Origin: Methanosarcina barkeri str. Wiesmoor
GTDB lineage: Archaea; Halobacteriota; Methanosarcinia; Methanosarcinales; Methanosarcinaceae
NCBI RefSeq assembly: GCF_000969985.1
Contig: NZ_CP009526.1
Location: 1,116,001 to 1,180,000 of the forward strand
Length of the DNA stretch: 64,000 bases
Direction of reading: 5' to 3'
Shown here: piece by piece, positions 18,795 to 54,803 of the stretch
Position numbering within the stretch: position 1 is the first letter of the stretch
Layout of the letters: each line of letters begins with the position of its first letter
The notes under the pieces: generated by a model
Database searches by the model: none
Told to the model about the DNA's origin: nothing
Seen by the model: only the letters and a program-made list of their open reading frames with translations
Made by a program: the position numbers and the translations under genes

Positions 18795-19531
18795 ATATAA
18801 TTGGAACTTCTCACTTAACACTTGACGTAATAGACATCAATAGTTTGAACAAGAATTATTCTCTTTTAATCGAATCTTTATTCAAAAGACTTCAAACGAT
18901 AGGTGTAAAAACAGGAACAGTATACCTTGATAGAGAATTTTTTAACACTGATGTGATTCCAAAATTGGATGAACTTAAAGTCAATTTTGTTATAGCAGTT
19001 AAATCGACTCAGGTTATCAATAGAGAACTTAAAAATCATCAAAAAGAGTATGGAAATACTTCGACTATTTTTGAATATCAATTTCAGAAAGGAGGACCTT
19101 CTTTTAATGTTGTGGCAATATATAATGATGAAAAGAAAAAGTATCTTCTGTTTGCTACAAACAAAAAAGCAGAATCAATTGAGAAATTTGAAAAGATGAT
19201 TCCTGAAGAATATAGAAAACGATGGAATATAGAAACTGGATATAGAGTGAAAAACGAGTTCAAGATACGATCATGTACAAAATCTCCAGTAGCGAGATTA
19301 TTGTTCTTTATTATTCAATGTATAATGTACAATGTGCTAAATATGCTAAAGTCAGTTCTAAAAATTACAGCTTATGAGCTAAAATCATTAATAAATGAAG
19401 ATATAAACAAAGTTGTAAGATATGGACTAAAGTCGCTGAATTTTATTCCTGTTAGTGTGTTACTGGATTGTTTGAGATGGGTCAATGAAGAAAGAAATCG
19501 AGTGCTACGCACTCGATTAACTATAATATAA

Positions 19532-27908: not shown

Positions 27909-29180
27909 TCTATTATTAGTCCCCTCTTAATTTCTTCATTCAGAGAAGGCTTGCAATTCCTTCCTTTCATTAATACCGTAATTTACAGTTACCCCTACTA
28001 AAAGTACAGCTAAAGAACAGTATTTTTGGACAGAACTCCTTGTATATCTGTGTAAATTCTCCATAGAGTATGCTTTCTTCGCTATTTTGAATACATCTTC
28101 TATAATTGACCTTACAGATCTGAGTTCTTTCCATTTGCTTATTAACTCTTTAAACTTTGCAATTATTTCTTTGTAGAATTTAATTTCTTTTTCAGTATTT
28201 CTTCTTAAATCAAATATTTTCAGAGGATATCTAAACATATTGAAAAGTTTCTTAAAATTACAGTTTTTCCTTGGAAAAATTAAAGGTACTACCTTAAAAT
28301 TTCTTACAGATATAACGTAGTTTTCATAGGAATAGTATCCTCTATCAGCATAGATAACGTCACCTGCTTTTATTATTCTCTTTCTTTTAAGTTCTTTAAG
28401 TATTTCAGGATAAATTTTAGGTTCTGCTACATTTGCTTCATTAATCAGAAACGCTAAAGGTTTTAATGTTTGAGAATCAAGTGCAAGAGTAAGTTTCATA
28501 CCAATGAAGAAACCTCTATGGGTTGAATGGCCCCACTTGTATTCTTTGTTTTTTAGGCTTTCTTTGGTAATCTTTTTAGCGTGCCAGTTCAGGTTAAGGT
28601 TTATGTCAGTACTATCAATAATAATGTCTCTTGATCCATTTTTTTCTCTTAGGGCATAAATCATTCAATATTTCAAAAACAAAAGCAGTAAACTCTTGGG
28701 GTTCATACTTACTAAGAATGCCATAAACTTCCTTTTCAGTTGGTACTAAACTGATTTTTAAAAAGTTTCTCAAGATTTCTCTTTCTTTTAATTCCTTTAT
28801 AGCATAAGAGATTTCACAAGAAAAAAACATGCTTAGAAGAACAATTTTTATAGTAGGTACTGATCTGTGGAGGGGCACAATGCCCCTCCTTGTAAGAGTT
28901 TGCTTACAGAATCTCAAATCAAAAACATTTAATATTTCGGACAACAATTGCCATTTGAAATCTTCATTTAGTGGTATAAGTGGAGGTTTCGTAATAATCA
29001 CCAGAGAAGGATTGAAAATCCTTCTCAATAAAATTTACGATTTTTTATGACATTAATTAAAATTCAGACGAAAAATTGAATGTACTTTTTTGAGGGGAAC
29101 TACTAATAACCTTAATAAATGGAACAAATAAGTAATAACCTCTAGTTTGAGAGTGAGTTTAAGAGGACCCTATCTATTAT
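27909..29180 (-). mobile_element. 1256-bp insertion sequence, copy 1, with perfect 8-bp target duplication
   Basis: Occupies 27917-29172 and is flanked by TCTATTAT on both sides. The ends TAGTCCCCTCTTAAT and (reverse complement) TAGGGTCCTCTTAAA are inverted repeats. A second copy at 53542-54795 is nearly identical and in the opposite orientation. The transposase is of the IS4/IS5 DDE superfamily; I cannot fix the family. It inserted directly at the edge of the 414-bp MITE (29180-29593). Confidence 0.9.
27936..29028 (-). pseudogene. IS4/IS5-superfamily transposase, one frameshift (copy 1)
   Basis: The N-terminal frame (29028 down to 28615) and the C-terminal frame (28664 down to 27936) overlap at a run of seven A in the coding strand (plus-strand T at 28639-28645), where copy 2 has six. 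With six A the protein would be about 363 residues. DDE motifs: DIIIDSTDINL, VIYADRGYYSYEN and a C-terminal Glu in RSIIEDVFKIAKKAY. The earlier T7 run (A at 28821-28827) is in frame here. Confidence 0.85.
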
Positions 29181-36189: not shown

Positions 36190-37356
36190 ATGAAACTATT
36201 GGCGTTTGTTTCTACTATCGACTTAAAATACGGACTTGGGTGTACACCCTCATGGTGGCAGTTACTGAAGGCTCTCCATGAGACAGGAAACGAAGTTATA
36301 GTAGTCCCTTACCTTGGAGGAGCAGTGGAAAGTCTCTGGTGGAGAACATATGAAAATTCGTGTAAATTTGAGAGTATTCTTTATAACAACTTCCTGAAAT
36401 CCCATAGAAAAGTTGCTGATCCTTCAAAAACCAAGGTGTTTCTTTCTACCATAACTAAAAACTTAATCAATCTTGATATCAAGCCCAAGATAAAAAAGCA
36501 ACTCACGGACATTATAACTAAAGAAAAAGATATTGATTTTATTCTTTTTATGAATATTCCCCTTAACCACATCACAGGAATTCCTTCTGAGTTAAAAACA
36601 GAATTCGGGATTCCATGCCTTTATTATGATGGAGATATGCCTACAATCCTTCCCAAGTATGCGGTGTCACGTGGATTTAAGTTTAACTACTATGTGAATT
36701 CGGATCTTTCAGAGTATGATGCTTTTTTTGTCAATTCAAAAGGAGTTATAGAAGACCTCAAGGAAGCTGGTGCAAAAAACGTTACTCCATTGTATTATGC
36801 AGCAGACGCAGATCTTTTTGCCCCTGTAAATGTTGAGCAGACTATTGATGTCTCATTCTATGGTCACGGAAGTGGATTAAGGGAAGAATGGATGACAAAT
36901 ATGATCACAAATCCTAGTAAAAGGCTGCCTGACGTAAATTTCTCAGTAGGGGGTGGTAACTTCGGAATTGACATGGGGAATGCAAAGCTTATTGGCCCGG
37001 TTTCCTATAGCGCATTCCGCGAATTCTGCTGCAAAAGTAAGATCAACCTGAATATTACCAGGTGGTCTCATACAAATATATATGCCTCTGCTACAGCCAG
37101 GCCATTTGAACTTGCAGCTTACGGAGCCTGCATAGTTTCCCAGCCTTACAAAGGGATAGAAGATTGGTTTGAAGTTGGAAAAGAGATTATTGTTGTCAAT
37201 AGTGAAGATGAAGCTGTAGAAACCTATGAATGGTTATTATCCTCTGATGAAGAAAGGCTGAAGATCGGTGAAAGGGCGAGGCAGAGAATTCTGAAGGACC
37301 ATACATACAGGCATAGGGCTAAAACGATTATTGACGTGTGCAAATTGTGCAACTGA
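36190..37356 (+). CDS. CgeB-like glycosyltransferase (GT-B)
   Basis: A 388-residue protein resembling the CgeB/DUF3880 plus Glyco_trans_1_2 arrangement. The N-terminal half contains YDAFFVNSKGVIEDLKEAG and YYAADADLFAP, which bridges to the second Rossmann domain. The C-terminal half has VSFYGHGSGLREEW, the conserved KINLNITR, then ATARPFELAAYGACIVSQ and the closing RARQRILKDHTYRHRA, all typical of CgeB-like transferases. It starts 75 bp after the GT2 anchor and is followed within 10 bp by an acyltransferase, so it heads a compact unit. Confidence 0.82.
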   Translation: MKLLAFVSTIDLKYGLGCTPSWWQLLKALHETGNEVIVVPYLGGAVESLWWRTYENSCKFESILYNNFLKSHRKVADPSKTKVFLSTITKNLINLDIKPKIKKQLTDIITKEKDIDFILFMNIPLNHITGIPSELKTEFGIPCLYYDGDMPTILPKYAVSRGFKFNYYVNSDLSEYDAFFVNSKGVIEDLKEAGAKNVTPLYYAADADLFAPVNVEQTIDVSFYGHGSGLREEWMTNMITNPSKRLPDVNFSVGGGNFGIDMGNAKLIGPVSYSAFREFCCKSKINLNITRWSHTNIYASATARPFELAAYGACIVSQPYKGIEDWFEVGKEIIVVNSEDEAVETYEWLLSSDEERLKIGERARQRILKDHTYRHRAKTIIDVCKLCN

Positions 37357-37366
37357 TGTGATTTAT

Positions 37367-38041
37367 ATGGCTGAGAGACAAAACGAAAGAGACGACCGTC
37401 AAAAGTTAAAAAATATTAGCTTTGCTAAGAAAATCTTGCTAGGTCTTTCAATGTATGTTCCCTCATCTACATTCAAAAAAATAGTGTTGAAATTGCTGGG
37501 TGCACATATCGGCAAAAATGTATACTTTGGTCCTGGATCTCTTGTTCTTTCCAATGATTACAGTAGTGTTTATATTGAAAACAATGTTTTTGTGGCTCCA
37601 GGTGTGTTAATAAATGTAAATAATTTTACAGTCGGGGAAAATTCACATCTTGGGTATCAGTGTTTAATGGTAGGGGAGTCCCTCAAGATCGGATCCAGAT
37701 GCAATATCAGCAACCGAACATTTATAGAATGTTCCTATTCTCCAATACTCATTGAAGATGATGTAACTATTGGTGGATGTGCTATGGTTTCAACTCATGA
37801 TGGCTCTTACAGGCAGGTTTATGGTCTTGAAATGAAAGCTGCTCCTATCTATATTAGATCAAAAGCTTTTATTGGCAACAATGCTATCATTTTGCCTGGA
37901 ATTGAAATCGGTAGAAAAGTTATTGTTGGAGCGGGTGCTGTCGTAACAAAAAATGCGGTGGCAAATTCAGTAATATGTGGAGTCCCTGCTGACAAAATTA
38001 GAACTATGGAGGTTTCAAATGAAAATATTACAGGTAACTAA
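37367..38041 (+). CDS. Hexapeptide-repeat O-acyltransferase
   Basis: A left-handed beta-helix acetyltransferase. Repeats: LGAHIGKNVYFGPGSLVL, VYIENNVFVAPGVLI, then ILIEDDVTIGGCAMVSTHDGSYRQ containing the catalytic-type His, and AFIGNNAIILPGIEIG followed by VIVGAGAVVTKNAVANSVICG and a terminal GVPADKIR. I chose the ATG at 37367 (MAERQNERDD) because upstream codons overlap the CgeB-like gene without a better ribosome-binding site. It overlaps the next GT4 gene by 23 bases. Confidence 0.88.
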   Translation: MAERQNERDDRQKLKNISFAKKILLGLSMYVPSSTFKKIVLKLLGAHIGKNVYFGPGSLVLSNDYSSVYIENNVFVAPGVLINVNNFTVGENSHLGYQCLMVGESLKIGSRCNISNRTFIECSYSPILIEDDVTIGGCAMVSTHDGSYRQVYGLEMKAAPIYIRSKAFIGNNAIILPGIEIGRKVIVGAGAVVTKNAVANSVICGVPADKIRTMEVSNENITGN

Positions 38042-39197
38042 TTTTTTCAAACCCTCTTGGGAAGCAGGTGGAATTGCAAGGGTTGCCTATGAAATTTCAA
38101 AAAATTTAGTACAACAGGGCCATGAAGTAACAGTTTTTACTACCGATGGATTTAAATCGAGGCTGAAAACTATTAAGAACAAGCCTGTTAATGTAGATGG
38201 AATAAATACCTATTATTTCCGAAATCTGTCTAATTATTTAACAAAACGCAATATTGTCATCCCTTATTATTTACCTTTTATCGCTAGAATAAAAATTCAG
38301 GATTTTGATGTTATCCATATTCATGAGCATCGGACATTGCTTGCAGTAATCGTTCATTATTATTCAAAAAAGTATAATATTCCATATGTGTTACAAGCTC
38401 ATGGAACACTTCCAAACACTATTGGTAAACAGAATCTAAAAAAGATATTTGATGTTTTATGGGGAAATAAAATATTAAAGGATGCATCTAAGCTGATTTC
38501 AGTATCCAATACAGAAGTTGATCAATATTTACAAATGAATGTCCCTATTGAAAAAATGGTCATTATTCCAAATGGTATAGATGTTGATTCATTATCTAGC
38601 TTACCTGAAAAAGGTAGTTTTAGAGCTAGGTACCATATTAATCAAAAGCATGCGATATTGTATTTAGGAAGGTTACATAAAATAAAAGGTGTTGATTTTC
38701 TACTCCGGTCTTTTGTAGAGTTGGTTAAAGATATCGACGATTCTGTATTGATATTAGCTGGTCCGGATGACGGTTATAAAGATAAAGCGAAAGAACAAAT
38801 ACGTGAGTTTGGTTTAGAAAAAAAGGTTATTTTTACTGGATATATGGGACCAATGGATAAAATTTCAGCTTATTTGGATGCTGATATCTTAGTTTATCCC
38901 TCTTCTTTCGAAATATTCGGGCTTGTTCCATTTGAGGCAATAATGTCTGGCACTCCTGTAATAGTTACTGATGACTGTGGGTGTAGCGAATTTATAAAAA
39001 GAGCTTCTTGTGGGTACTTAGTTAAATATGGGGATGTAACTGATTTTAAATGCAAAATGAGACTAATGCTTGAAAATCCTGAAATTGGGAACAAATTTGT
39101 TGAGAATGGGCAAAAATATATTACAAATAATTTAACTTGGCCACTAATTTGTAAAAAAATGGAGACCCTTTATGAGAATTGTATTTACAAAGTTTGA
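38019..39197 (+). CDS. Family 4 glycosyltransferase
   Basis: A GT-B transferase starting at the ATG at 38019, with GGAGGT 7 bases upstream. The N-terminus QVTNFFKPSWEAGGIARVAY carries the GT4 glycine loop; the acceptor domain has AHGTLPNTIGKQ. The donor domain shows YLGRLHKIKGVDFLLRSFV, VIFTGYMGPMDKISAYLDAD, and the E-x7-E signature FEIFGLVPFEAIMSGTPVI. It is translationally coupled to the acyltransferase upstream. Sugar specificity is unknown. Confidence 0.9.
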   Translation: MKILQVTNFFKPSWEAGGIARVAYEISKNLVQQGHEVTVFTTDGFKSRLKTIKNKPVNVDGINTYYFRNLSNYLTKRNIVIPYYLPFIARIKIQDFDVIHIHEHRTLLAVIVHYYSKKYNIPYVLQAHGTLPNTIGKQNLKKIFDVLWGNKILKDASKLISVSNTEVDQYLQMNVPIEKMVIIPNGIDVDSLSSLPEKGSFRARYHINQKHAILYLGRLHKIKGVDFLLRSFVELVKDIDDSVLILAGPDDGYKDKAKEQIREFGLEKKVIFTGYMGPMDKISAYLDADILVYPSSFEIFGLVPFEAIMSGTPVIVTDDCGCSEFIKRASCGYLVKYGDVTDFKCKMRLMLENPEIGNKFVENGQKYITNNLTWPLICKKMETLYENCIYKV

Positions 39198-39211
39198 ATA
39201 TACTACAATTT

Positions 39212-39243
39212 ATCTCGAGATAGCTAGAAGACCGAGATCTCGA
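39212..39243 (+). terminator. Hairpin downstream of the GT4 gene
   Basis: CTCGAGAT and ATCTCGAG form a perfect 8-bp inverted repeat around a 16-base loop, 15 bp after the stop codon. No T-run follows, so it may be an mRNA 3'-end structure and not a classical terminator. Confidence 0.4.
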
Positions 39244-39263
39244 GTTTCTAATTGATATTCATA

Positions 39264-39375
39264 CGTTTTCGGTTAGTGAGGAATCGCAAGTTACATTATT
39301 CCATTTAAATTCCACCTAAGGTACAAAATCGATAGCTTTCAGGCAAGAAAATTCTCCAACCGATGACAATGAATT
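39264..39375 (-). repeat. Non-coding repeat, copy 1 (inverted relative to 43857-44181)
   Basis: CGGTTAGTGAGGAATCG at the left and a ~60-bp block containing AATCGATAGCTTTCAGGCAA at the right recur in reverse complement at 44157-44181 and 43857-43916. The two copies bracket the three genes between them. Copy 1 lacks most of the interior. Confidence 0.65.
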
Positions 39376-39402
39376 GAATACTGGACAAACAAAGGAATAT
39401 AC

Positions 39403-40524
39403 ATGGTAATTAAAAGAAAAAGCATTTGTGTGATCACTTTTCCACCCATGAAAGCAGGGTTCACTCCATTATCTAATCTTATTGATATTTTAACATCTTC
39501 TTCTAATGAGATATATCTAATTACTGGAAACGAAAGTTATCATCATTTTGCTGGTAATAAACATATTCATTTGTATGGTATATTCCATTCAAAAGGTAAT
39601 GGTTCAGTTAATAGAATTAAAAATTATATTTGTACCCATTTAAAAATAGCTCATTTGTTCCTAAAAATAATTCGTAAAGTCGATGTATGTATTTTTTTCT
39701 TAGGAGGGGAAATGCAAATTTTATCGTTGATCCCCGCAAAATTATTTAAAATAAAAACAGTTACTATAGTTTCGGGAGTTTCAATAAAATACGAGAAAGA
39801 TATTCTATCGAAAATAGTTACAAAATTATGTACTGTAAACTTTAATCTGGTAGACAAGATTATATTATATTCTCCACGTCTCATAAACGAATGGAATTTT
39901 GAAAAATATTCCAATAAGATTTTGATAGCTCCTCGGCATTTTTTGGATTTTTCTAATTTTAATTTAAGCGTTGAGTTTAGTCAAAGGAGCGATTTCATTG
40001 GGTATGTAGGTCGTTTATCTGAAGAAAAAGGTATTATTAATTTTATAGAGTCAATTCCTATCATTTTAAAACAAAAACCGTATCTGAATATTTTGATAAT
40101 AGGTGATGGAGATTTAAAAAGTAATGTTGATAAGTATCTTTCTCAAAATGGTCTTGAAAACAATGTAAAACTTGTTGGATGGAGCTTTCGTGAGGATCTT
40201 CCCAAATATTTAAATTCATTAAAATTGCTAGTTATTCCTTCGTATACAGAAGGTCTTCCTAATGTTATGTTAGAAGCAATGGCTTGCGGAACGCCTGTAC
40301 TTGCTACAGGAGTGGGAGCAATTCCTGATATAATAAATGATGAAGAAACTGGCTTTATTATGGAAAACAATTCTCCTGAATGCATTGCAAAAAATGTTTT
40401 CCGTGCTATGAAACATCCAAATCTTGAACATGTTGTAGAGAACTCTCATAGTTTTGTAAATGATAACTTCACTTACAATAAAGCTGTGGAAAGATATTCA
40501 GAAATACTTCATAATATTCAATGA
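39403..40524 (+). CDS. Family 4 glycosyltransferase
   Basis: A 373-residue GT-B transferase. The N-terminal domain begins ICVITFPPMKAGFTPLSNL; the donor domain contains IGYVGRLSEEKGIINFIESI, VKLVGWSFREDLPKYLNS and the signature YTEGLPNVMLEAMACGTPVL, with GVGAIPDIINDEETGF. All are normal for GT4. It is the first gene of a three-gene cassette (GT4, GT-C-like, GT4-like) flanked by inverted non-coding repeats. Confidence 0.9.
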   Translation: MVIKRKSICVITFPPMKAGFTPLSNLIDILTSSSNEIYLITGNESYHHFAGNKHIHLYGIFHSKGNGSVNRIKNYICTHLKIAHLFLKIIRKVDVCIFFLGGEMQILSLIPAKLFKIKTVTIVSGVSIKYEKDILSKIVTKLCTVNFNLVDKIILYSPRLINEWNFEKYSNKILIAPRHFLDFSNFNLSVEFSQRSDFIGYVGRLSEEKGIINFIESIPIILKQKPYLNILIIGDGDLKSNVDKYLSQNGLENNVKLVGWSFREDLPKYLNSLKLLVIPSYTEGLPNVMLEAMACGTPVLATGVGAIPDIINDEETGFIMENNSPECIAKNVFRAMKHPNLEHVVENSHSFVNDNFTYNKAVERYSEILHNIQ

Positions 40525-40716
40525 ATTTATAAACAGATCATTTACGAAATATTATGACTTGAATGAATTGTCAAATTAACTTTAATTTAGGGCGATCTTA
40601 CAGCAATTTAAAAAAAGGTTATATCTATATACATAACATATCTCTATGTATTTTTATTGATGACTACTTAAATGGTCTCAATATAATATATTGAATATTT
40701 TAATGGGCGGATAAAA

Positions 40717-42510
40717 GTGTTCTCCAAGGATAAGTGTATTAATACTTCTAGATACATAAAATTAGTATCAATATTTGGGTTTATAATAATATTATCAGCT
40801 TTAACTATTATAACTAACAGCCATTCTCCTAATGTATATGCTTTTTCAATATACAATATGTATCCATGGTATTTTTGGGCTCTTATTGTTATGGCTATTT
40901 TCATCGGCCAGATGATATTAATCTATAACGCAATTTCTAAGTATGAGACTAATACTTGGCTAATTGGTTTTTTAATGATAATAGTTTCAAACCTAATTTT
41001 ATTGCTTATGCCAATTATCCGAGGATATTTCATACATGGCAGGGAAGATGCTTTAACTCATATTGGTTATATGGTCGATATTGAGAATACCCATAGTATT
41101 GGTTTTAACTCTTATCCCATGCTTCACATACTGGGTTTTACACTAAAATCCTTCTCTGGTTTAAGTTATAACGATATTACTATGTTTCTACCTTTATTAT
41201 ATTCACTATTCTATATATTTTCGTGGTATATTCTTGGAAAGTATATATTTAAAAACAAACGTGATCTATTTATAATGTTATCATTTTCTTCAATACTATT
41301 ACTTGGCAGTAAAAATGTTATGCTTAGCCCTAATGGGCAAGCAATTCTTTTTGTCCCTTTCTTTCTTTATGTTTTTTTTAAATCGAGATTACCAAAGAAA
41401 GCTGTGCCATATTCGATTCTGTTAATTCTACTTAGTTTTTTTATAATATTTTCTCATCCTTTAGTCACAATTTTGCTTACAGTAACGATTTTATTATCTG
41501 ATTTTACTATGTATCTTAATCGTAACAAAAACTCTGAGTTTAAAATAAAAAAGTCAACTAATTTATTATTTATTATGATATGTTCCTTTCTCATATGGTC
41601 TTCATATTTACATATTCTTGCATACAGTCTGGAAAATATAATATCTACGTTAATATTCAGTGACGGAGGAGGCTCTGAATTTGGGAGATACCAGACATCT
41701 CTTAGTTCTGTTGATGTATCTTTTTTGAAAATCTTCGGACTAATACTAAATCTGTACGGTCCCTATATCATATTATCCATACTCTCTGCCGCCTGTATAA
41801 TATACATGCTTACTTTTTGGAAAAAAGATAACATAGAAGTAAATTATTACCATAAACTTTCAATTCTAGGATGGGCATTCCTTGTGATCTTCTCACTGCT
41901 ACTATTTCTCTTCAATGATCAATTTGGTTTTATAAGAGTTTATAGTTATTCAATATTTTTCTCTATTATCTTGATATCTTTTTCAATAAGTATGTTTCTA
42001 AGAAGATCTTCGGATAAAAATAATAGTAATTTGAAAGTATTAGTAATATTTTCAATTTTGATACTTATTACGAGTTTATCCACATATAGTTTATTTTTGT
42101 CACCTAATATTTTAAAAATAGATCAACAGACTCCAGAGAGTGAGTTTTCTGCAATGAAAACATTTTATAAGGTAAAAGAAAATTATCCTGTATTGGAACG
42201 TGGAACAGTAAACTATAGGATTTACAATGTAGTTTATGGAGTTTCAGCCGCTAAGAAAAATGATGTTGTTTATGGTAATCAAGTTATCAAGCATTTTGGA
42301 TACAATAACAATTCTTCGTTAAGTGACTCTTATAACAAATCATATCTACTGGTTAGTTATGTTGGTAGAAACCAAGATCAAAAACTATTGCCAAATTTTG
42401 AAAACAGATGGAATTTTAATTATAGTGATTTTGTGCACTTAGATAATGACGTTGGAGTTACTAAATTTTACTCCGATAAATTTTCAGATATTTATATTAT
42501 CAAACCTTAA
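40717..42510 (+). CDS. GT-C-like integral membrane protein (597 aa)
   Basis: About 12-13 membrane helices up to residue ~470, then a soluble tail of about 120 residues. The loop after the early helices has RGYFIHGREDALTHIGYMVD, an acidic/His-containing motif positioned as in GT-C transferases, and the following NSYPMLHILGFTLKSF. The layout parallels the protein at 22279-24264. The start is a GTG at 40717; an in-frame GTG/ATG choice cannot be settled by eye. Likely function is lipid-linked sugar transfer or polymerisation. Confidence 0.65.
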   Translation: MFSKDKCINTSRYIKLVSIFGFIIILSALTIITNSHSPNVYAFSIYNMYPWYFWALIVMAIFIGQMILIYNAISKYETNTWLIGFLMIIVSNLILLLMPIIRGYFIHGREDALTHIGYMVDIENTHSIGFNSYPMLHILGFTLKSFSGLSYNDITMFLPLLYSLFYIFSWYILGKYIFKNKRDLFIMLSFSSILLLGSKNVMLSPNGQAILFVPFFLYVFFKSRLPKKAVPYSILLILLSFFIIFSHPLVTILLTVTILLSDFTMYLNRNKNSEFKIKKSTNLLFIMICSFLIWSSYLHILAYSLENIISTLIFSDGGGSEFGRYQTSLSSVDVSFLKIFGLILNLYGPYIILSILSAACIIYMLTFWKKDNIEVNYYHKLSILGWAFLVIFSLLLFLFNDQFGFIRVYSYSIFFSIILISFSISMFLRRSSDKNNSNLKVLVIFSILILITSLSTYSLFLSPNILKIDQQTPESEFSAMKTFYKVKENYPVLERGTVNYRIYNVVYGVSAAKKNDVVYGNQVIKHFGYNNNSSLSDSYNKSYLLVSYVGRNQDQKLLPNFENRWNFNYSDFVHLDNDVGVTKFYSDKFSDIYIIKP

Positions 42511-42603
42511 TTTTATTTGATAGTACGACATATAAAATTGATATAAAATTTAAGTTATATAATAAGTAATATTCAAGCAGTTCTCTGATTAAAAGGAATC
42601 TTT

Positions 42604-43782
42604 ATGAAAGTGTTATACTTAATCTCGACAATGGAGCCTCACTCAGGAAGAGGAGGGCATTATTATAGTTTAAGAACTACTGCTGAAGAAATTAGTAAAA
42701 AGTTAGATTGTGCTATAGTTGTTATTGGAAAAAGAGAGTCTCCAGTTATAAATCAGTCAAAAGTAAAAGTATATAATTTAATCTATGAAAAAATAAGTGT
42801 TATTAAAGTAATGAAAGATCTGAAAAACATTATTGATATTGAGTGCCCTCAAGTTATTCATAGTTTTGATGAAGATACCTTCTTTTTTGGGAGTTTAATT
42901 AGTAATATTTTCAAAAAGCCATATATTCATACGAAATGTGGAGGCCCAAATCCAAGAATAGCTTTTCCAAAAGTGAATAACTTAATATTATTTTCTCAAG
43001 AAAACGTTAAGTTTTATCAGTCTTCAAGAAGATTTAAAAAAACCAATCTATTTTATATTCCAAATCGAATCAAGGAAATTCCTTCAGATTTTTCAAGAAT
43101 AAAAGACATCAAGTTATCAGTGCATTGCAATAAATCAAAAGTATTTCTAATAATTTCCAGGCTTGAAGTATCCAAAAAGAATGATATATTACAGGCAATA
43201 GATCTTGTAAAAAAATTAAATTTTGATGGAATTAAAACTAAGTTAATTATTATTGGAACCCTACAAGATGCAAATGTTGGTAAAGAAATAAGTGAGAATC
43301 TAGATAATAATATTTATCTGTTCACAGACGAGAAGTACTCAATTAACGCTAGTCAGCTAATTGATGTTGCTGACTTTGTTATTGGTGGTGGAAGAAGCTT
43401 TATGGAAGCTGCATCAAAAGGGAAGATTATGCTGTGCCCCTTAAAAAACTCAAATTATCCTTTATTAATCACAGAAAAAAACTTTCAAAGTGCTTTTGAT
43501 CAAAACTTTTCAAGTAGATTAACTATTGATAATTTCGATCCAGATGATAATTATAAACAAATTCTTCAAGCGATAATCAACGAAGAATACGCAAATAATA
43601 TTACTAGTTTTATTAAATCGGTTTCAAGTGAACATTTTGAAATCAGCAGTCAGCTCAACAGATATTACAAGATTTATAACGAAGCAAAATATAAAATGCA
43701 TTTTAGTATGTTCGATATATTAACTCAATTTTTCAGAATGGTTTATTGTAATGACTTAATCCCAAAACTTAAAACTATTTGA
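42604..43782 (+). CDS. GT4-like glycosyltransferase
   Basis: A 392-residue protein with GT-B features. The N-terminus has MEPHSGRGGHYYSLRTTAEE, with the glycine loop; the middle has FYIPNRIKEIPSDFS, then VFLIISRLEVSKKNDILQAI at the start of the donor domain, and IDVADFVIGGGRSFMEAAS near the C-terminus, where the usual E-x7-E motif is replaced by GGGRSFMEAASKGK. It is therefore a divergent member. AAAGGAATC precedes the ATG. Confidence 0.78.
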   Translation: MKVLYLISTMEPHSGRGGHYYSLRTTAEEISKKLDCAIVVIGKRESPVINQSKVKVYNLIYEKISVIKVMKDLKNIIDIECPQVIHSFDEDTFFFGSLISNIFKKPYIHTKCGGPNPRIAFPKVNNLILFSQENVKFYQSSRRFKKTNLFYIPNRIKEIPSDFSRIKDIKLSVHCNKSKVFLIISRLEVSKKNDILQAIDLVKKLNFDGIKTKLIIIGTLQDANVGKEISENLDNNIYLFTDEKYSINASQLIDVADFVIGGGRSFMEAASKGKIMLCPLKNSNYPLLITEKNFQSAFDQNFSSRLTIDNFDPDDNYKQILQAIINEEYANNITSFIKSVSSEHFEISSQLNRYYKIYNEAKYKMHFSMFDILTQFFRMVYCNDLIPKLKTI

Positions 43783-44205: not shown

Positions 44206-45525
44206 TTAGGTGATTCTCTTACGCTTGATTGGTGGTGCATGAATCAATCCTAAAATAAAATTGATATCACTTTTTTTACAAATAAATATGTCACTTAAAC
44301 TTAATTGAGTAATTTTCATATAGTAATACAAAATGGATACTGATGCAAGCGTATAACTAACGGTTGAAGCTAAGGCTGCACCACAACCACCATAATCTGG
44401 TATTAAAATTATATTAAGCACTATATTGATCAAAACGGCTGGGGAAAAAATTTTTAGAGTAATATCAGGTTTTCCTCTGCCAGCCAAATCCATATTAATA
44501 ATTTTAAAAAGACTCATTATAACTATTCCAGGTAATAATATTTTTAGCATCTTGACACTTGGGATATATTCGTCTCCATTCAAAAAAGGGATTATATACC
44601 CACTAGCAAAATATAAAAATAATGACCCAAACAAGACAATAGGGAAAATAATCCTTATCATTTTTGCAATATCTTGAGAGAATTTATTTGAATCCTTTGC
44701 GTTTGCACTATATGAAAAAATAACTACCCCAAAAGCAGTCGGTAGCTGCCATAATAATTCAGCAAAACCAACTCCTATTGAATATTGACCTACTTCTGCA
44801 ATATTACTTAAACGTTCAAGTATAATTATGTCCACTCTATAATTAAGATTCAGGACAAACAGTGAAAGTGCATAGATAAATCCTAGAGAAAACATTTTTT
44901 TGATTATTTCGGGTGAACAGCATATTTTTAAAGAATATTCTCTCTTGATCATTAATAAGGCATATAAAGCAAGCATAATTCGGGCAACAAGTGTGGCCAA
45001 AATCGCACCTAACACATATAAATTCTCAAAAAATACTAAAAAGATGATAAGTACAAAATTAATTATAGGAACCAAATATTTTATTTGGTTAAATTTATTT
45101 ATTCGCTGTTTGCCAATTAAAATCCCAGTAAAATAATTAATAGTAAGATCTGCAGGAACTGTAAATGACGCAAGTAATATTAGCATTTGATTATAATCTG
45201 GGTTTTTAGTATACGAGATTATTACAATTGAAGTTAAAACTCCAATTGCGCTTGATAAAATAAGTAATAATAACGTTACACCTACAATGTCTGATTCCGA
45301 GTATTTTTTTGTACCAAGATAATAAACAGTTGCCTGACGCATTCCCATACTTAAAAGACTAATTAGTATTCCCGGATAAACTAAAAGAGCAGAAAAGATT
45401 CCTTTCCCTGAAGGTCCAAGTTCTCTCGCAAGTATTACTCCTGAAATGAAACTTACAATTAAAATAAACAATTGAGTTCCAAAAACAGATATTCCATCTT
45501 TTGCCAAACTGTAGTTCTTTACCAT
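44206..45525 (-). CDS. Wzx-like polysaccharide flippase of the murAB operon
   Basis: A 439-residue, 12-to-14-helix protein of the MVF/Wzx group. It opens with FGTQLFILIVSFISGVILAR and ELGPSGKGIFSALLVYPG; the C-terminal half has NMDLAGRGKPDITLKIFSP and NIILIPDYGGCGAALASTVS, standard Wzx motifs. It is the last gene of a minus-strand unit (murA, murB, acetyltransferase, flippase), 13 bp after the acetyltransferase stop. This suggests it exports a glycan carrying the MurA/MurB-derived sugar. Confidence 0.88.
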   Translation of the reverse strand: MVKNYSLAKDGISVFGTQLFILIVSFISGVILARELGPSGKGIFSALLVYPGILISLLSMGMRQATVYYLGTKKYSESDIVGVTLLLLILSSAIGVLTSIVIISYTKNPDYNQMLILLASFTVPADLTINYFTGILIGKQRINKFNQIKYLVPIINFVLIIFLVFFENLYVLGAILATLVARIMLALYALLMIKREYSLKICCSPEIIKKMFSLGFIYALSLFVLNLNYRVDIIILERLSNIAEVGQYSIGVGFAELLWQLPTAFGVVIFSYSANAKDSNKFSQDIAKMIRIIFPIVLFGSLFLYFASGYIIPFLNGDEYIPSVKMLKILLPGIVIMSLFKIINMDLAGRGKPDITLKIFSPAVLINIVLNIILIPDYGGCGAALASTVSYTLASVSILYYYMKITQLSLSDIFICKKSDINFILGLIHAPPIKRKRIT

Positions 45526-45538
45526 TTTATACCCTACG

Positions 45539-46094
45539 TTACTTAATTATTTTTGCAGGACTTCCTACTGTGGTTGAGTTTTTAGGTACATCAGTCAGTA
45601 CAACTGAATTTGCACCAATTACAGCATTTTTATGAACAGGTATTCCACCTATAACTTTTTCTCCAGAATAAATTATTGCGCCTTGTTTTACTGTGGGGTA
45701 GGGCTTTGCTTCGTCTTTATGCCCATAGCTTCCAAATGTAGTTTGTTGAAAAATTGTAACTTCATCTCCAATAATCACTCTCGCTCCATATTACGACTGA
45801 AGTATGAGCAAATTTTATTCTATTACCTAATTTAGCTCTACAATCGATTTCATTGCCGCCAAGGATAGGTTGTCGATATTTGTTAAAACCGAGAGCTTTT
45901 CTAGCTATCTTAGATCTTAAATAACAACATCTAGAAATACGATACCGATATATTAGTTTAAAAAAAATCTTCAAAAAAAAGATCGCAGCCTTACTCAATA
46001 AGTTTTTACCACCGTAGAAAACTAAATATTGATTTATATCTTTCAAGCAGTTTTTTAAACTATATTTATCTTTATTCAACTTTTCCAATCTCAT
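45539..46094 (-). pseudogene. Serine-acetyltransferase-like hexapeptide acyltransferase, frameshifted
   Basis: The N-terminal helical domain (46094 to about 45790) has LRSKIARKALGFNKYR and ends KFAHTSVVIWS. The C-terminal beta-helix (45778 to 45539) begins VIIGDEVTIFQQTTFGSYGH, includes the catalytic-type His and closes GANSVVLTDVPKNSTTVGSP. The two frames meet at about 45785-45800, where one base too many or two too few break the GARVIIGD motif. The combined length of about 184 residues matches CysE-like sugar acetyltransferases. It overlaps murB by 23 bases. A sequencing error cannot be excluded. Confidence 0.78.
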
Positions 46095-47028
46095 GCAATG
46101 ATCTGAGACTTCCCAGCTCTCCTACATACTTCACTTCGCTTTCTAAACAAAGTCCGTAACGTTGATATACAACTTTTCGAATATATTGGACAATAGAAAT
46201 CACATCTTTAGCCGTAGCATTTCCCAGATTTACTATAAAATTGGCATGTTTTTCCGAAATTTGAGCACCACCTATTTGATAACCTTTTAAACCTGCTTCT
46301 TCAATTAACTTTCCAGGAGGTGCAAAAGTGTCGTTCACAACAGGATTACTTAAAAAAACAGATCCACAATTGGGATAATTAAGTGGAAATTTGTTCTTAC
46401 GGTTATTTAGTATAGTTCTCATTTCGGACTTTATTCGTTCTTTTTCTCCAAGTTCACATTCTAGCTCAATTTTACAAATAATATAATCTGAATCCTGAAA
46501 TACTGATTTTCTGTAAGAAAAATCACATTCTTTTTGGGATAAATATATTAAATCATAATTCTTGTCAACAGCCCATACTTTTTTGACAATGTCTCCTATG
46601 CATTTTCCACTGCTTCCTCCGTTCATAAAAATAAGTCCGCCAAGAGTGCCTGGAATTCCAATAGCATGTTCAAGGCCTGATAAACCATTATCTGATAATA
46701 TTTTTGCAAATTTTGGAGTCCAGATACCTGCTTCCGCGCAAACCCTTTTACCATTAATAGTATATCTAGAAAAATTATTTCCCAACTTTATAATGATTCC
46801 ACGAAGCCCTTCATCACAAAAAAGTAAATTTGTTCCATTCCCTATAACAACCGTGGGAATTTTCATTAAATCAGCATATTGTACAATTTCAATTATCTGT
46901 TTGATATTATATGGTTCAATTAAAACGTCTGCGGGACCACCAATACGCCAGCTACTGTGTTTTGAAAGAGGTTCTTTTAAATAAATATCTCCTACTTTTT
47001 TATTAATCAAATTATTTATTTTATCCAT
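46072..47028 (-). CDS. murB: UDP-N-acetylenolpyruvoylglucosamine reductase (MurB)
   Basis: A FAD-dependent reductase that turns UDP-GlcNAc-enolpyruvate into UDP-MurNAc. The 318 residues show the FAD-binding SSWRIGGPADVLIEP, IGNGTNLLFCDEGLRG and HAIGIPGTLGGLIFMNGG. Active-site residues are present: FSYRKSVF (Tyr172/Arg173), NCGSVF (Ser223, proton donor) and LESEVK (Glu298). GLKGYQIGGAQISEKHANFI is the type II MurB signature. It overlaps murA by 8 bases. Archaea lack peptidoglycan, so this is most likely acquired from a bacterium and used for a surface glycan. Confidence 0.93.
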   Translation of the reverse strand: MDKINNLINKKVGDIYLKEPLSKHSSWRIGGPADVLIEPYNIKQIIEIVQYADLMKIPTVVIGNGTNLLFCDEGLRGIIIKLGNNFSRYTINGKRVCAEAGIWTPKFAKILSDNGLSGLEHAIGIPGTLGGLIFMNGGSSGKCIGDIVKKVWAVDKNYDLIYLSQKECDFSYRKSVFQDSDYIICKIELECELGEKERIKSEMRTILNNRKNKFPLNYPNCGSVFLSNPVVNDTFAPPGKLIEEAGLKGYQIGGAQISEKHANFIVNLGNATAKDVISIVQYIRKVVYQRYGLCLESEVKYVGELGSLRSLHEIGKVE

Positions 47029-48277
47029 ATCTTATATTTCCCCCCAATGAAATTAATTTTTCTACAAAATTATCATACCCTCTTTCAATCTGCCAGGCAT
47101 CTAAGATCCGGGTCTCACCTTTTGCCACCAGTCCAGCTAACGCTAATGCAATACCAGCTCGGAGATCAAGAGCTCTTACTTGAGCACCATTAAGGGGATT
47201 TCCACCGATGATTTCCAATATATTACCATTGATATTATATTGCAAGCCCATTTTGGCTAGTTCACTTGTATAACAATATCTACCAGGGAAACGTAAGTCA
47301 ACAATTTTTGAACTACCTTTTGCACAGGCACCATAAACTGCAAATAGAGGTTGAACATCCGATTTGATTTCGGGATATGGACCAGTACTAATCTCTACAG
47401 GATAGGGGGTTCCCCCTCTTACAATAAGACTGTTGTCTCCAAGATAATACTTCGCTCCGCTTTGACGAAGATGTATTAGCGTAACTTCAACGTCCTTGAA
47501 GGGAAAATCAATGATCTCGATATCTCCACCCGTAATCACTGAAGCAATTAGCCACGTGACCGCTTCGATATTATCAGCAATTACAGAATGTCTAGTCCCA
47601 AATAATTTTTTCACTCCAGTAATTTTTATATGTTCCTGGCCAAAAATCTCGATCTTCGCACCCATCTCATTAAGAAAACGCGCCAAATCAAGAATTTCGG
47701 GTTGAATATGAGGATTCCAAACTCTGGTTATACCTTCAGCTAAAGATCCACAGATCATTGAATTTTCAGTCGCGCCTGTTGAACGGATAGGTAAAAAAAT
47801 GTCAGCCCCTTTTAGTCCATTTTCTGCTTTAGCACAAAGCATATTATCTTCAATCCAAACTTTTGCTCCCATGTTTCTGAGAAGCATTTCGTGTAGATCA
47901 AATTTTCTTTCTCCAAGATTACAACCTCCTGGAAGAGGAACCTTTGCTTCACCTATGCGACTTACCAGTGCACCTAATATAAGTAAAGTATTACGAATTG
48001 AGCGCTTGTTCCAATTAAGAATTTTCAAAGGAGCTTTTTCCTCGTAAATGGTTATTTTTTCATCCTCTACGACACATTTTTTTCCAAGAGCTTCCAACAT
48101 ACCAACATGAATTTGAGCATCGAGTAAATTAGCGGGGTAATTTGTCAGTTCTATTTTCTCATCCGTTAGCAATGAAGCTGCAAGAAGACGTAAAGCACTA
48201 TTTTTTGCACCACTTACTTTTACTTTCCCTTGAAGCCTGGATGGTCTGACTATATATTCACATTTTTCTGGATTCAT
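47021..48277 (-). CDS. murA: UDP-N-acetylglucosamine 1-carboxyvinyltransferase (MurA)
   Basis: Transfers enolpyruvate from PEP to UDP-GlcNAc. The 418-residue protein has the two-domain EPSP-synthase fold pattern. KVSGAKNSALRLLA carries the Lys-Asn pair (Lys25, Asn26); LPGGCNLGERKFDLH holds the catalytic Cys119 (equivalent of E. coli Cys115); KSDVQPLF supplies the catalytic Asp; and DLRAGIALALAGLVAKGET carries the conserved Arg. All key residues are therefore visible. It is the first gene of the minus-strand unit murA-murB-acetyltransferase-flippase. Confidence 0.94.
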   Translation of the reverse strand: MNPEKCEYIVRPSRLQGKVKVSGAKNSALRLLAASLLTDEKIELTNYPANLLDAQIHVGMLEALGKKCVVEDEKITIYEEKAPLKILNWNKRSIRNTLLILGALVSRIGEAKVPLPGGCNLGERKFDLHEMLLRNMGAKVWIEDNMLCAKAENGLKGADIFLPIRSTGATENSMICGSLAEGITRVWNPHIQPEILDLARFLNEMGAKIEIFGQEHIKITGVKKLFGTRHSVIADNIEAVTWLIASVITGGDIEIIDFPFKDVEVTLIHLRQSGAKYYLGDNSLIVRGGTPYPVEISTGPYPEIKSDVQPLFAVYGACAKGSSKIVDLRFPGRYCYTSELAKMGLQYNINGNILEIIGGNPLNGAQVRALDLRAGIALALAGLVAKGETRILDAWQIERGYDNFVEKLISLGGNIRYG

Positions 48278-48554: not shown

Positions 48555-49481
48555 TTAGTTCAGGAACCATTCTGCTACTGTCTTAAGTTCATCCCTAAAA
48601 TTACCAATGGGATTATATCCGAATTCTTTAGCCTTTGATATATCTGCTAATGAGTGCTTAATATCCCCTGGTCTTGGTTCTGCATGTATCGATTTTATTT
48701 TCTTTCCCAGTATTTCATTAACGTAATCGACTAACTGATTAATTGTAATTCTTCTACCACATGCTATATTGAAAACTCCAGTTTTCTTAGACTCGCAGGA
48801 AAGAATATTCGCATCAACAACTTTTTTGACAAAAGTGAAGTCTCTGCTTTGTTCTCCGTCTCCGTATATCACGGGACTCTCATCGTTTAGAATTGCAGTT
48901 ATAAATTTTGGGATTACAGCTGCATATTGAGAATTTGGGTCCTGCCGAGGGCCAAAAACGTTGAAATATCTTAAACTAACTGTTGGCAGATCATAAAGAT
49001 CCTGAAAAACCCTGCAGTACATTTCTCCGGTTGCTTTTGTAATTGCATATGGAGACATTGGGTTTATGGGCATATCTTCTCTTTTTGGGAGAGTTGGCGT
49101 ATCGCCATACACCGAAGAGGAAGAAGAAAATATTAATTTCTTAATTCCAGTATCTTTTGCAGCTGTCAGAACATTCAGTGTTCCTGTGATATTAGAGTTA
49201 TTTGAACTAAAAGGATCTTTTACACTTCTTGGAACACTGGGAATTGCTGCAAGATGAAAAACATAATCCTTGTCTTTGAAAATTTCTGTTAAATTCAAGT
49301 CTACTATACTGCCTTTTATTACAGTTAGATTTTCGTGGTCTAGTAGATGTCTTATATTTTCAATGTTACCTGTAGATTCGTTATCAATAACTGTTACTTC
49401 ATTATCTTCAAGTAGCCTCTCAGTAAGATGGGAACCAATGAAACCCATACCACCTGTGACTACTACATTTTTAGTTTTCAA
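48555..49481 (-). CDS. UDP-sugar 4-epimerase-like SDR protein
   Basis: A 308-residue extended SDR of the GalE/WbpP group. It has the NAD motif [64 protein letters not shown] (YxxxK) and [20 protein letters not shown] with the PRQDP motif that is typical of UDP-GlcNAc/UDP-Glc 4-epimerases. It lies 35 bp downstream of the dehydrogenase gene on the same strand, so the two are likely one unit. Confidence 0.9.
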
Positions 49482-49516: not shown

Positions 49517-51268
49517 TTAAAGTTGTTGCAGTTTTCTTTTCTGGACTTCTTTTTTAATTTGCTGAATATGGCCTCTTCCAAGGGCTTTAACTTCGCAGCC
49601 AAGTTCGAAATATCTTTTGATATCGTCATCCGATAATATTCCAAAACAGTCAATAACTGCGATAGGCCCGCCTGCCATCTTTACGATAGTTTCCGGCTCA
49701 AAGTTAAGATATTCATTATGTGGAACTGCGAGGATAAGGGCTTCTATATCTTTAATTGCTGTTGAAAAGTCACTTTCGATTTTTAGCTCTGTCAGACTTC
49801 CCTGGTTTCTGAAGAAACGTTTCCAGGAGTGGCCGGAAGCCGGATATGTGTCCTGATTTTCCATTTCATACCAGTGATCAACGTATGGATCATGGACACG
49901 CATCTCAGCGCCCATTTCAGTCAGTTTCCTGACTACAATTTCACTTCCACTGTATCTTGTATCGCCTACATCCTGCCTGTAACTAGCCCCACAAATGAGG
50001 ACATCTGCTCCGGCTATATAGTGGCCCATATTCCGAAGAGCATCTCGCGTAAGTTCGGCTACATGAAGGGCTCTTGTGTCATTTATATCAATTGCTGTGG
50101 GGGTGATCTTGAATACCTCATCTCCATCCTCAAAGCCCAGAATATGCTTATAAGCCCAGTAACCCAGACCTCCGTCTTTTGGAAGGCAATAGCCTCCAAT
50201 CCCCGGTCCTGGGAAGATTATGTTACTGTGAGTTGGGCGCATTTTGATTGCATTAATAACTTTTATGATATCGACACCGTTTCTTTCCGAAAAAAGACTC
50301 CATTCATTAAGGAAAGCGAGTATCGTTGCACGGTAGGAGTTCTCAATGATTTTTGCAGTTTCGGATTCAATAGGTCTATCCATTATAGTTAGAGGATAAT
50401 CTTTAGTGTTTATCACTTCACTGAGGAACTTTTCAACCTTTGCTCTTGCTTCGTCAGTACAACCTGCGCAGACTCTCCAGAAGTCACGTACACTTGCCAC
50501 ATAATTTCTCCCAGGCATAACACGTTCAAAACTATGTGCAAGTAAAGGAGTTGAATCGATTCCACGCTTCTGGAACGCTTTTTTCAGGAGAGGAAGTGCA
50601 ACGAATTCGGTCGTTCCTGGGGCAACAGTTGTTTCTATTAGCACAAGGCAATCGGGGCAGATATTTTCTCCAATTATTTTCATAGAAGCTTCAAGTGCTG
50701 CCATATCGGCTTCGCCGGTTCTGACATTTCCAAGTTCACACTTTACATAATCGCACTGGATATCTACCACAACAACATCAGCAAGTTTCAGACATTCGTT
50801 TGTGTATGTAGCTACAAGCGTTTTTGTTTCAAGAACACAGCGGTTTATAATTTCATCTACTTCTTTATCTTCTGATTTCACAGGAGATTGTCCTCTGTTG
50901 AGCAGTGGTATTTTCCAATAACTGCGGGTACTTGGTCTCTGACAACCGATTACAAATTTGCTATAATTCCCGTTTTCGTCTTTCGTATCTGCAATAATCG
51001 CAGCCATTACAGCTCCAACAAATCCGACCCCCATCACAACGACAATCTCTTTCCCTTCTTCACGGGCTTTGTCCACAAGATCTTTAACTCTTTTAAATTC
51101 TTCTTTGTATTCTTCAGGTTCAGGTATCGGAAATTCTTCTCCTTCCGGACTAACTGAATAATTTATAATATTAGAAGTAAGTTCAACGGACTCAACCTTT
51201 TCACCCTGAATGCTTTCCTGAATAGCTGAATAATTTCTTATTTTAGAAGACATAACTTCTATCTCCAA
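49517..51268 (-). CDS. UDP-sugar 6-dehydrogenase (UDP-GlcNAc/ManNAc dehydrogenase-like), extended
   Basis: Oxidises a nucleotide sugar to its uronic acid. The protein is long for the family (583 residues, against about 420-450 usually), with an N-terminal extension of about 60 residues and insertions. Recognisable motifs are VVVMGVGFVGAVMAAI (NAD), ETTVAPGTTEF, the Lys/Asn region SETAKIIENSYRATILAFLNE and the catalytic Cys in GPGIGGYCLPKDG, then LICGASYRQDVGDTR. The pattern fits UDP-ManNAc or UDP-GlcNAc dehydrogenase better than UDP-Glc dehydrogenase, but the exact substrate is inferred. Confidence 0.85.
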   Translation of the reverse strand: MEIEVMSSKIRNYSAIQESIQGEKVESVELTSNIINYSVSPEGEEFPIPEPEEYKEEFKRVKDLVDKAREEGKEIVVVMGVGFVGAVMAAIIADTKDENGNYSKFVIGCQRPSTRSYWKIPLLNRGQSPVKSEDKEVDEIINRCVLETKTLVATYTNECLKLADVVVVDIQCDYVKCELGNVRTGEADMAALEASMKIIGENICPDCLVLIETTVAPGTTEFVALPLLKKAFQKRGIDSTPLLAHSFERVMPGRNYVASVRDFWRVCAGCTDEARAKVEKFLSEVINTKDYPLTIMDRPIESETAKIIENSYRATILAFLNEWSLFSERNGVDIIKVINAIKMRPTHSNIIFPGPGIGGYCLPKDGGLGYWAYKHILGFEDGDEVFKITPTAIDINDTRALHVAELTRDALRNMGHYIAGADVLICGASYRQDVGDTRYSGSEIVVRKLTEMGAEMRVHDPYVDHWYEMENQDTYPASGHSWKRFFRNQGSLTELKIESDFSTAIKDIEALILAVPHNEYLNFEPETIVKMAGGPIAVIDCFGILSDDDIKRYFELGCEVKALGRGHIQQIKKEVQKRKLQQL

Positions 51269-53533: not shown

Positions 53534-54803
53534 TTCCAATATAGGGTCCTCTTAAACTCACTCTCAAACTAGAGGTTATTACTTATTTGTTCCATTAATT
53601 AAGGTTATTAGTAGTTCCCCTCAAAAAAGTACATTCAATTTTTCGTCTGAATTTTAATTAATGTCATAAAAAATCGTAAATTTTATTGAGAAGGATTTTT
53701 AATCCTTCTCTGGTGATTATTACGAAACCTCCACTTATACCACTAAATGAAGATTTCAAATGGAAATTGTTGTCCGAAATATTAAATGTTTTTGATTTGA
53801 GATTCTGTAAGCAAACTCTTACAAGGAGGGGCATTGTGCCCCTCCACAGATCAGTACCTACTATAAAAATTGTTCTTCTAAGCATGTTTTTTCTTGTGAA
53901 ATCTCTTATGCTATAAAGGAATTAAAAGAAAGAGAAATCTTGAGAAACTTTTTAAAAATCAGTTTAGTACCAACTGAAAAGGAAGTTTATGGCATTCTTA
54001 GTAAGTATGAACCCCAAGAGTTTACTGCTTTTGTTTTTGAAATATTGAATGATTTATGCCCTAAGAGAAAAAATGGATCAAGAGACATTATTATTGATAG
54101 TACTGACATAAACCTTAACCTGAACTGGCACGCTAAAAAGATTACCAAAGAAAGCCTAAAAAACAAAGAATACAAGTGGGGCCATTCAACCCATAGAGGT
54201 TTCTTCATTGGTATGAAACTTACTCTTGCACTTGATTCTCAAACATTAAAACCTTTAGCGTTTCTGATTAATGAAGCAAATGTAGCAGAACCTAAAATTT
54301 ATCCTGAAATACTTAAAGAACTTAAAAGAAAGAGAATAATAAAAGCAGGTGACGTTATCTATGCTGATAGAGGATACTATTCCTATGAAAACTACGTTAT
54401 ATCTGTAAGAAATTTTAAGGTAGTACCTTTAATTTTTCCAAGGAAAAACTGTAATTTTAAGAAACTTTTCAATATGTTTAGATATCCTCTGAAAATATTT
54501 GATTTAAGAAGAAATACTGAAAAAGAAATTAAATTCTACAAAGAAATAATTGCAAAGTTTAAAGAGTTAATAAGCAAATGGAAAGAACTCAGATCTGTAA
54601 GGTCAATCATAGAAGATGTATTCAAAATAGCGAAGAAAGCATACTCTATGGAGAATTTACACAGATATATAAGGAGTTCTGTCCAAAAGTACTGTTTTTT
54701 AACTGTACTTTTAGTAGGGGTAACTGTAAATTACGGTATTAATGAAAGGAAGGAATTGCAAGCCTTCTCTGAATGAAGAAATTAAGAGGGGACTATTCCA
54801 ATA
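53534..54803 (+). mobile_element. 1254-bp insertion sequence, copy 2, with perfect 8-bp target duplication
   Basis: Occupies 53542-54795, flanked by TTCCAATA on both sides. The ends TAGGGTCCTCTTAAA and (reverse complement) TAGTCCCCTCTTAAT equal those of copy 1 at 27917-29172. The two copies are almost identical, so at least one transposition is recent. Confidence 0.9.
53686..54776 (+). pseudogene. IS4/IS5-superfamily transposase, one frameshift (copy 2)
   Basis: The N-terminal frame (53686-53916) breaks at a run of six T (53887-53892) where copy 1 has seven. The long C-terminal frame (53940-54776, 278 residues) is intact through the A6 run (54068-54073) and contains all visible catalytic motifs: IIIDSTDINL, YADRGYYSYEN and SIIEDVFKIAKK. 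The lesion differs from that in copy 1. Confidence 0.85.

Follow-up and report, generated by a model that had tools for sequence, protein, structure and literature searches.

A probable lactyl-sugar cassette with accessory-type MurA and MurB in a polysaccharide gene cluster of Methanosarcina barkeri

Introduction

Muramic acid and its synthesis are generally treated as a bacterial hallmark. Outside peptidoglycan, ether-linked lactyl sugars, including N-acetylisomuramic acid, are known from bacterial O-antigens (PMC10609480; PMC8466920). Here, we describe a murA-like and a murB-like gene (together, murAB) in an archaeon, Methanosarcina barkeri str. Wiesmoor (genome of 4.9 Mb on two contigs), where they lie within a polysaccharide gene cluster in a 64-kb stretch of contig NZ_CP009526.1 (the window). 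We consider it probable, on sequence grounds, that the two genes are part of a laterally acquired cassette that makes a nucleotide-activated 3-O-lactyl-N-acetylhexosamine (HexNAc), namely, UDP-N-acetylmuramic acid (UDP-MurNAc) or something closely related, destined for an exported surface glycan and not for peptidoglycan. We favor this proposal because of the intact genes, their catalytic residues, the predicted fold, purifying selection, and the missing peptidoglycan pathway, as well as the co-occurrence with a flippase and a neighboring gene and the grouping with bacterial accessory MurA/MurB pairs.

Results

The two genes, both intact and overlapping by 8 bp, are as follows.

47021 to 48277, minus strand: murA-like UDP-HexNAc enolpyruvyl transferase of an accessory subfamily, 418 amino acids (assigned from PF00275, PRK09369, residues, tree, and AlphaFold 2 [AF2] model)
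46072 to 47028, minus strand: murB-like enolpyruvyl reductase, 318 amino acids (assigned from TIGR00179, residues, and tree)

A preliminary description of the window had listed these open reading frames (ORFs), their overlap, and a set of catalytic residues (MurA Lys25/Asn26, Cys119, and the Asp of the KSDVQ motif; MurB Tyr172, Ser223, and Glu298), all of which were recovered. The MurA matched PF00275 (E = 7.5e-73) and exceeded the cut-off of NCBIfam model PRK09369 (392.8 bits), and its score stayed below the cut-off of the peptidoglycan-murA equivalog TIGR01072 (370.5 versus 392.7 bits). In alignments, it keeps K25, N26, C119, and D307, corresponding to K22, N23, C115, and D305 of the Escherichia coli enzyme, as well as R95, R124, H129, R333, D371, R373, and R399 (window numbering); K22, N23, R91, C115, R120, D305, R331, D369, R371, and R397 (E. 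coli numbering) are present in all 10 MurAs of the subfamily described below. The predicted structure (AF2, mean pLDDT of 88.9) has the inverse alpha/beta barrel of the enolpyruvyl transferase fold and overlays MurA crystal structures with TM scores of 0.94 to 0.95. MurB, in turn, reached 247.6 bits against TIGR00179 (cut-off, 144.5), contains the FAD_binding_4 (PF01565) and MurB_C (PF02873) domains, and retains Y172, R173, S223, and E298, as do 10 of 10 subfamily members in the alignment. Pairwise ratios of nonsynonymous to synonymous substitution rates (dN/dS) among five Methanosarcina genomes were low for both genes (0.10 to 0.18 for murA and 0.16 to 0.27 for murB), which indicates that both are maintained by purifying selection. 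Within the genus, the two gene trees conflict, with the window copy joining genome G078 in the murA tree and G078 joining Methanosarcina spelaei in the murB tree; this discordance suggests between-species recombination inside the locus (window positions 46072 to 48277).

Among plasmid records, seven accessory copies, from Rhizobium, Agrobacterium, and Qingshengfaniella, matched MurA at 58 to 64% identity, with the next matches at 39% or less; identity to housekeeping MurA was about 37%, and MurB was 40 to 46% identical to its counterparts in the same plasmid records. In the MurA tree (unrooted, like that of MurB), a clade of 10 was separated from the housekeeping enzymes (support of 100/100, branch of 1.7), and this clade persisted when the tree was rebuilt without Haematobacter, whose MurA sits on a long branch. 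In the MurB tree, too, the Methanosarcina proteins joined the plasmid pairs and not the housekeeping copies, with strong support. Judged by this grouping with accessory alphaproteobacterial plasmid pairs, the Methanosarcina copies are not of the peptidoglycan type; that the enzymes are bacterial in kind, as first described, agrees with both trees, in which they fall with these pairs.

Of five bacterial murAB loci that we examined, four are flanked by polysaccharide genes. Beside the pair, we found a GT2 glycosyltransferase and a flippase-like protein of 500 amino acids in Rhizobium gallicum and Rhizobium CC1099 (identified from the ORFs, as these records carry no annotation); a sugar dehydrogenase, an epimerase, a glycosyltransferase, and an O-antigen ligase in Agrobacterium MA01; and glycosyltransferases, a dehydrogenase, and an epimerase in Haematobacter. 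Nothing but a GT2 adjoins the pair in Qingshengfaniella. One further archaeon of the phylum, probably a haloarchaeon to judge by its acidic proteins, and the sole match among 391 genomes of its class, encodes a MurA with 58% identity; a MurB, a GT2, and an ABC exporter are encoded next to it. Its MurB falls outside the murAB clade in the MurB tree, and a single archaeal MurA clade uniting it with Methanosarcina was not favored, although the test did not reject it (p-AU, 0.114). Since MurA and MurB are widespread in bacteria, transfer of the cassette likely proceeded from bacteria to archaea. What is new here is a MurA/MurB lineage that has diverged, is associated with polysaccharide genes, and spans two domains of life. 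A viral origin was rejected, with no relative in IMG/VR (exact-peptide patterns only) and all matches in phage records below 40% identity.

Related GT2 proteins (33 to 43% identical pairwise) adjoin murAB in three bacteria and in the probable haloarchaeon (L125:16261-17268; L094:2821-3834; L124:9282-10379; L106:16252-17223), which makes this GT2 a candidate for the enzyme that transfers the lactyl sugar. Elsewhere in the phylum, two genomes encode a MurB-like protein, with no MurA, beside a polysaccharide pyruvyl transferase and a flippase (L096:13753-15832; L098:11328-13482; PF04230 in L098), and on plasmid pAES7 of Paracoccus aestuarii a protein of the pyruvyl transferase family and a MurB-like part are fused in a single long ORF (L126:2492-5029). 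Perhaps the combination of pyruvyl transferase and MurB-like protein represents another route to lactyl sugars.

The MurA fold also occurs in NikO, an enolpyruvyl transferase of nikkomycin biosynthesis, and murAB might by analogy serve a soluble secondary metabolite. In the fold comparison, however, NikO was only 25% identical to the Methanosarcina protein, versus about 36% for MurA proper, and the dedicated MurB, the flippase, and the polysaccharide neighbors in bacteria point to glycans, so that we regard a metabolite role as very unlikely.

MurA and MurB are the first two enzymes of peptidoglycan precursor synthesis, and they could in principle supply UDP-MurNAc to a peptide-bearing wall resembling peptidoglycan or pseudomurein. 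The polysaccharide gene context speaks against this, as do the searches of the whole genome. The absence of MurC-F, MraY, and MurG, previously noted for the window only, now extends genome-wide: no MurC-F ligase was found, the only protein with a Mur ligase middle domain being CfbE, the coenzyme F430 synthase (430 bits; cut-off, 250); MraY had no match; and MurG matches were weak (42.7 bits or less against a cut-off of 250). Peptidoglycan-type ligase genes elsewhere in the genome, which the preliminary description had named as a sign of some other role for the pair, were thus not found, nor was a pMur ligase, CfbE being the only Mur-ligase protein. We therefore rejected the idea of a peptidoglycan or pseudomurein remnant and consider a peptide-bearing wall exceedingly improbable.

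The genes surrounding murAB are listed below.

44206 to 45525, minus strand: Wzx/MATE-type polysaccharide flippase, 439 amino acids (PF01943, 60.3 bits)
45539 to 46094, minus strand: pseudogene of an EpsC-like (serine O-acetyltransferase-like) hexapeptide acyltransferase, frameshifted
48555 to 49481, minus strand: SDR epimerase of the WbpP type, presumably a UDP-HexNAc 4-epimerase (closest PDB entry 6dnt, E = 9.2e-108)
49517 to 51268, minus strand: nucleotide-sugar 6-dehydrogenase (TIGR03026, 190.5 bits versus a cut-off of 189.8)
42604 to 43782, plus strand: glycosyltransferase-like protein, 392 amino acids, without a Pfam match and so labeled from appearance and context; converges on the flippase gene
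40717 to 42510, plus strand: multi-spanning membrane protein, 597 amino acids, a possible polymerase by context
39403 to 40524, plus strand: GT4-type glycosyltransferase (PF00534, 128.8 bits)
37977 to 39197, plus strand: GT4-type glycosyltransferase (PF00534, 127.9 bits)
37331 to 38041, plus strand: hexapeptide acyltransferase (PF00132, 63.5 bits)
36190 to 37356, plus strand: glycosyltransferase, Glyco_trans_1_2 (PF13524, 112.5 bits)

With the Wzx-like flippase that had been proposed to lie beside murAB confirmed by its domain, and with glycosyltransferases also present (PF00534, PF13524), the cluster fits the Wzx-dependent type. The glycosyltransferases and the 597-residue membrane protein (positions 36190 to 43782) converge on the murAB side from the opposite direction; that membrane protein matched no family in Pfam or NCBIfam, so that no recognizable Wzy polymerase was seen, and is kept at the locus in five of five murAB-positive species. 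The closest PDB entry to the dehydrogenase is 3g79, an NDP-GalNAcA dehydrogenase. In genome G104 and in M. spelaei, a second SDR epimerase (GalE/TviC-like, under cut-offs) is located between the epimerase and murA (L007:10322-11257; L010:6204-7172). Sugar and polysaccharide genes extend from about 9.7 to 53.4 kb of the window, with transposase-like ORFs scattered among them. Such ORFs, read from the ORFs only, were seen at 16619 to 19531, 21672 to 22052, 27936 to 28664, and 53940 to 54776; their presence within a polysaccharide cluster is consistent with gene turnover.

Among 112 genomes of the family, murB was found in 5, all of them Methanosarcina (5 of 31 genomes of the genus), with murA and murB intact at the same locus in each. 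The nearest named relative of the window strain is M. spelaei (MurB, 85% identical). The module is not a general trait of the "methanogens of this group" to which the preliminary description refers. The distribution of the flippase and its 392-residue neighbor matched that of murB exactly (all five murB-positive Methanosarcina genomes, 0 of the remaining 26), whereas the dehydrogenase was more widespread (10 of 31). At murAB-negative loci, other polysaccharide genes follow the dehydrogenase, and the epimerase is kept in three of five. Given this co-occurrence and the broader range of the dehydrogenase, murAB, the flippase, and the neighbor form what looks like a variable cassette, next to a sugar-nucleotide pair that is commoner.

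The sugar acetyltransferase-like gene that the preliminary description had counted as a cassette component does not hold up as such. The gene overlaps murB by 23 bp, and the ORF from 45762 to 46094 is merely its front half; 2 bases present in three relatives are deleted here. This frameshift rules out a working acetyltransferase as part of the cassette in this genome. An intact relative matched EPS_EpsC at 133.6 bits, under the cut-off of 150. In M. spelaei only a remnant of the gene is left, and this decay, together with the patchy distribution, might suggest that murAB itself is a transferred relic without function. We consider that extremely unlikely, however, with both genes intact at one locus in five genomes, dN/dS of 0.10 to 0.27, and catalytic residues kept.

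A narrower form of our proposal, put forward tentatively, is that the acceptor is not UDP-N-acetylglucosamine (UDP-GlcNAc) but another UDP-sugar, for example, UDP-N-acetylgalactosamine (UDP-GalNAc) or a HexNAc uronic acid, which would make the product an analogue of MurNAc. With their catalytic residues intact, all 10 subfamily MurAs share V161R, V163T, changes at 186 to 188, R232N, T304S, I327R, E329P, and N330G (E. coli numbering), and the MurB subfamily shares changes at 137 to 139, 214, 227 to 228, and 238. The acceptor sugar may thus differ, since residues beside conserved active-site positions depart from those of peptidoglycan MurA, although the changed MurA positions are only presumed, by reference to known MurA structures, to contact the sugar, and such changes can also reflect drift or altered regulation. 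A sugar 6-dehydrogenase and an epimerase adjoin the pair in Methanosarcina, Agrobacterium MA01, and Haematobacter, but both are also found without murAB. Finally, bacteria with a peptidoglycan MurA/MurB of their own should need no second pair just for UDP-MurNAc, which hints at an acceptor other than UDP-GlcNAc itself; a different acceptor would explain the plasmid-borne pairs in peptidoglycan-making bacteria, where a dedicated UDP-MurNAc pool is, however, also possible. By extension, it is possible, though not what we would favor, that a distinct MurA/MurB subfamily, sporadic in alphaproteobacterial plasmids and archaea and acquired by Methanosarcina from bacteria, produces, specifically for exported polysaccharides, a lactyl nucleotide sugar that is not UDP-MurNAc but its analogue on GalNAc or a HexNAc uronic acid.

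Discussion

In the pathway that we propose for a lactyl sugar of an exported glycan, MurA would transfer enolpyruvate from phosphoenolpyruvate to the 3-hydroxyl of a UDP-N-acetylhexosamine, and MurB, using FAD and NAD(P)H, would reduce the resulting enol ether, leaving a lactyl ether. This UDP-3-O-lactyl-HexNAc would be either UDP-MurNAc or its counterpart built on GalNAc or on a uronic derivative; glycosyltransferases of the cluster would build the lactyl sugar into a lipid-linked repeat unit, and the adjacent Wzx would flip this unit outward for a surface polysaccharide. From the preliminary interpretation, the bacterial type of the enzymes, the lack of a peptidoglycan pathway, and the link to polysaccharide (through co-occurrence and independent bacterial loci) are retained, whereas the acetyltransferase role (a pseudogene) is not. 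UDP-MurNAc itself, the product named there, is one candidate among possible lactyl sugars, and the module is confined to 5 of 31 Methanosarcina genomes.

Several considerations weigh against this proposal. We infer enzyme activity, the choice of acceptor, and the incorporation and export of the sugar, with every step of the chemistry taken from homology. The GT2 that accompanies murAB in bacteria had no match in the window, and the whole genome gave only generic matches of no more than 30 bits. Shared descent of the five species may be the source of the co-occurrence pattern. A classic 1977 paper by Kandler and Hippe on the walls of M. barkeri is reportedly titled "Lack of peptidoglycan." Methanochondroitin is a GlcA-GalNAc-GalNAc polymer. 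Lactyl sugars are absent from its published repeat, and no genes have been assigned to its biosynthesis (PMC12369344); a lactyl polymer would thus be a different or minor one, and since murB occurs in only 5 of 31 Methanosarcina genomes, murAB is not a general requirement for methanochondroitin. In the open-access literature, our searches turned up nothing on a role of MurA/MurB in the making of Methanosarcina polysaccharides, which is weak evidence of novelty because subscription papers were mostly outside the search.

If correct, our proposal would make this the first lactyl sugar in the coat polysaccharide of an archaeon. A working MurA/MurB pair in a peptidoglycan-free archaeon would mean that this chemistry is detachable from wall synthesis and can spread as a glycan-decoration module, and it would argue against reading MurA/MurB, or muramic acid, as exclusive signs of bacteria. 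The plasmid pairs suggest an overlooked class of accessory bacterial MurA/MurB annotated as peptidoglycan enzymes, and the murAB-positive Methanosarcina are culturable organisms for study.

Among known systems, NikO resembles the Methanosarcina enzyme in having the MurA fold and a role outside peptidoglycan but differs in acting on UMP, in having no MurB partner, and in showing no clade-level similarity to murAB. Pseudomurein biosynthesis likewise uses Mur-like enzymes to make a wall polymer in archaea, but these include pMur ligases that this genome lacks. The structure closest to the neighboring epimerase, 6dnt, is WbpP of Methanobrevibacter ruminantium solved with UDP-MurNAc, a complex that reflects ligand tolerance in a related enzyme and not a pathway. 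Lactyl-ether O-antigen sugars, such as N-acetylisomuramic acid of Proteus penneri 62 and 4-O-carboxyethyl-mannose of Salinivibrio, are of the kind of end product expected here, a lactic acid ether on a surface-glycan sugar; they are bacterial, however, and use of MurA/MurB in their biosynthesis is not described in the available text of those reports. With MurA and MurB of peptidoglycan synthesis, the pair shares fold, catalytic residues, and order of chemistry, whereas its separate clade, the substitutions beside active-site positions, the missing downstream pathway, and the polysaccharide context set it apart. The accessory alphaproteobacterial plasmid pairs, for which we found no published function, differ in that their hosts are bacteria presumably equipped with their own peptidoglycan MurA/MurB and in that a GT2 adjoins most of these pairs but not that of Methanosarcina; nonetheless, the pairs of R. 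gallicum, Rhizobium CC1099, Agrobacterium MA01, and Qingshengfaniella (and, for MurB, Haematobacter) fall in the same clades as the Methanosarcina proteins, with murA and murB adjacent and mostly polysaccharide genes as neighbors.

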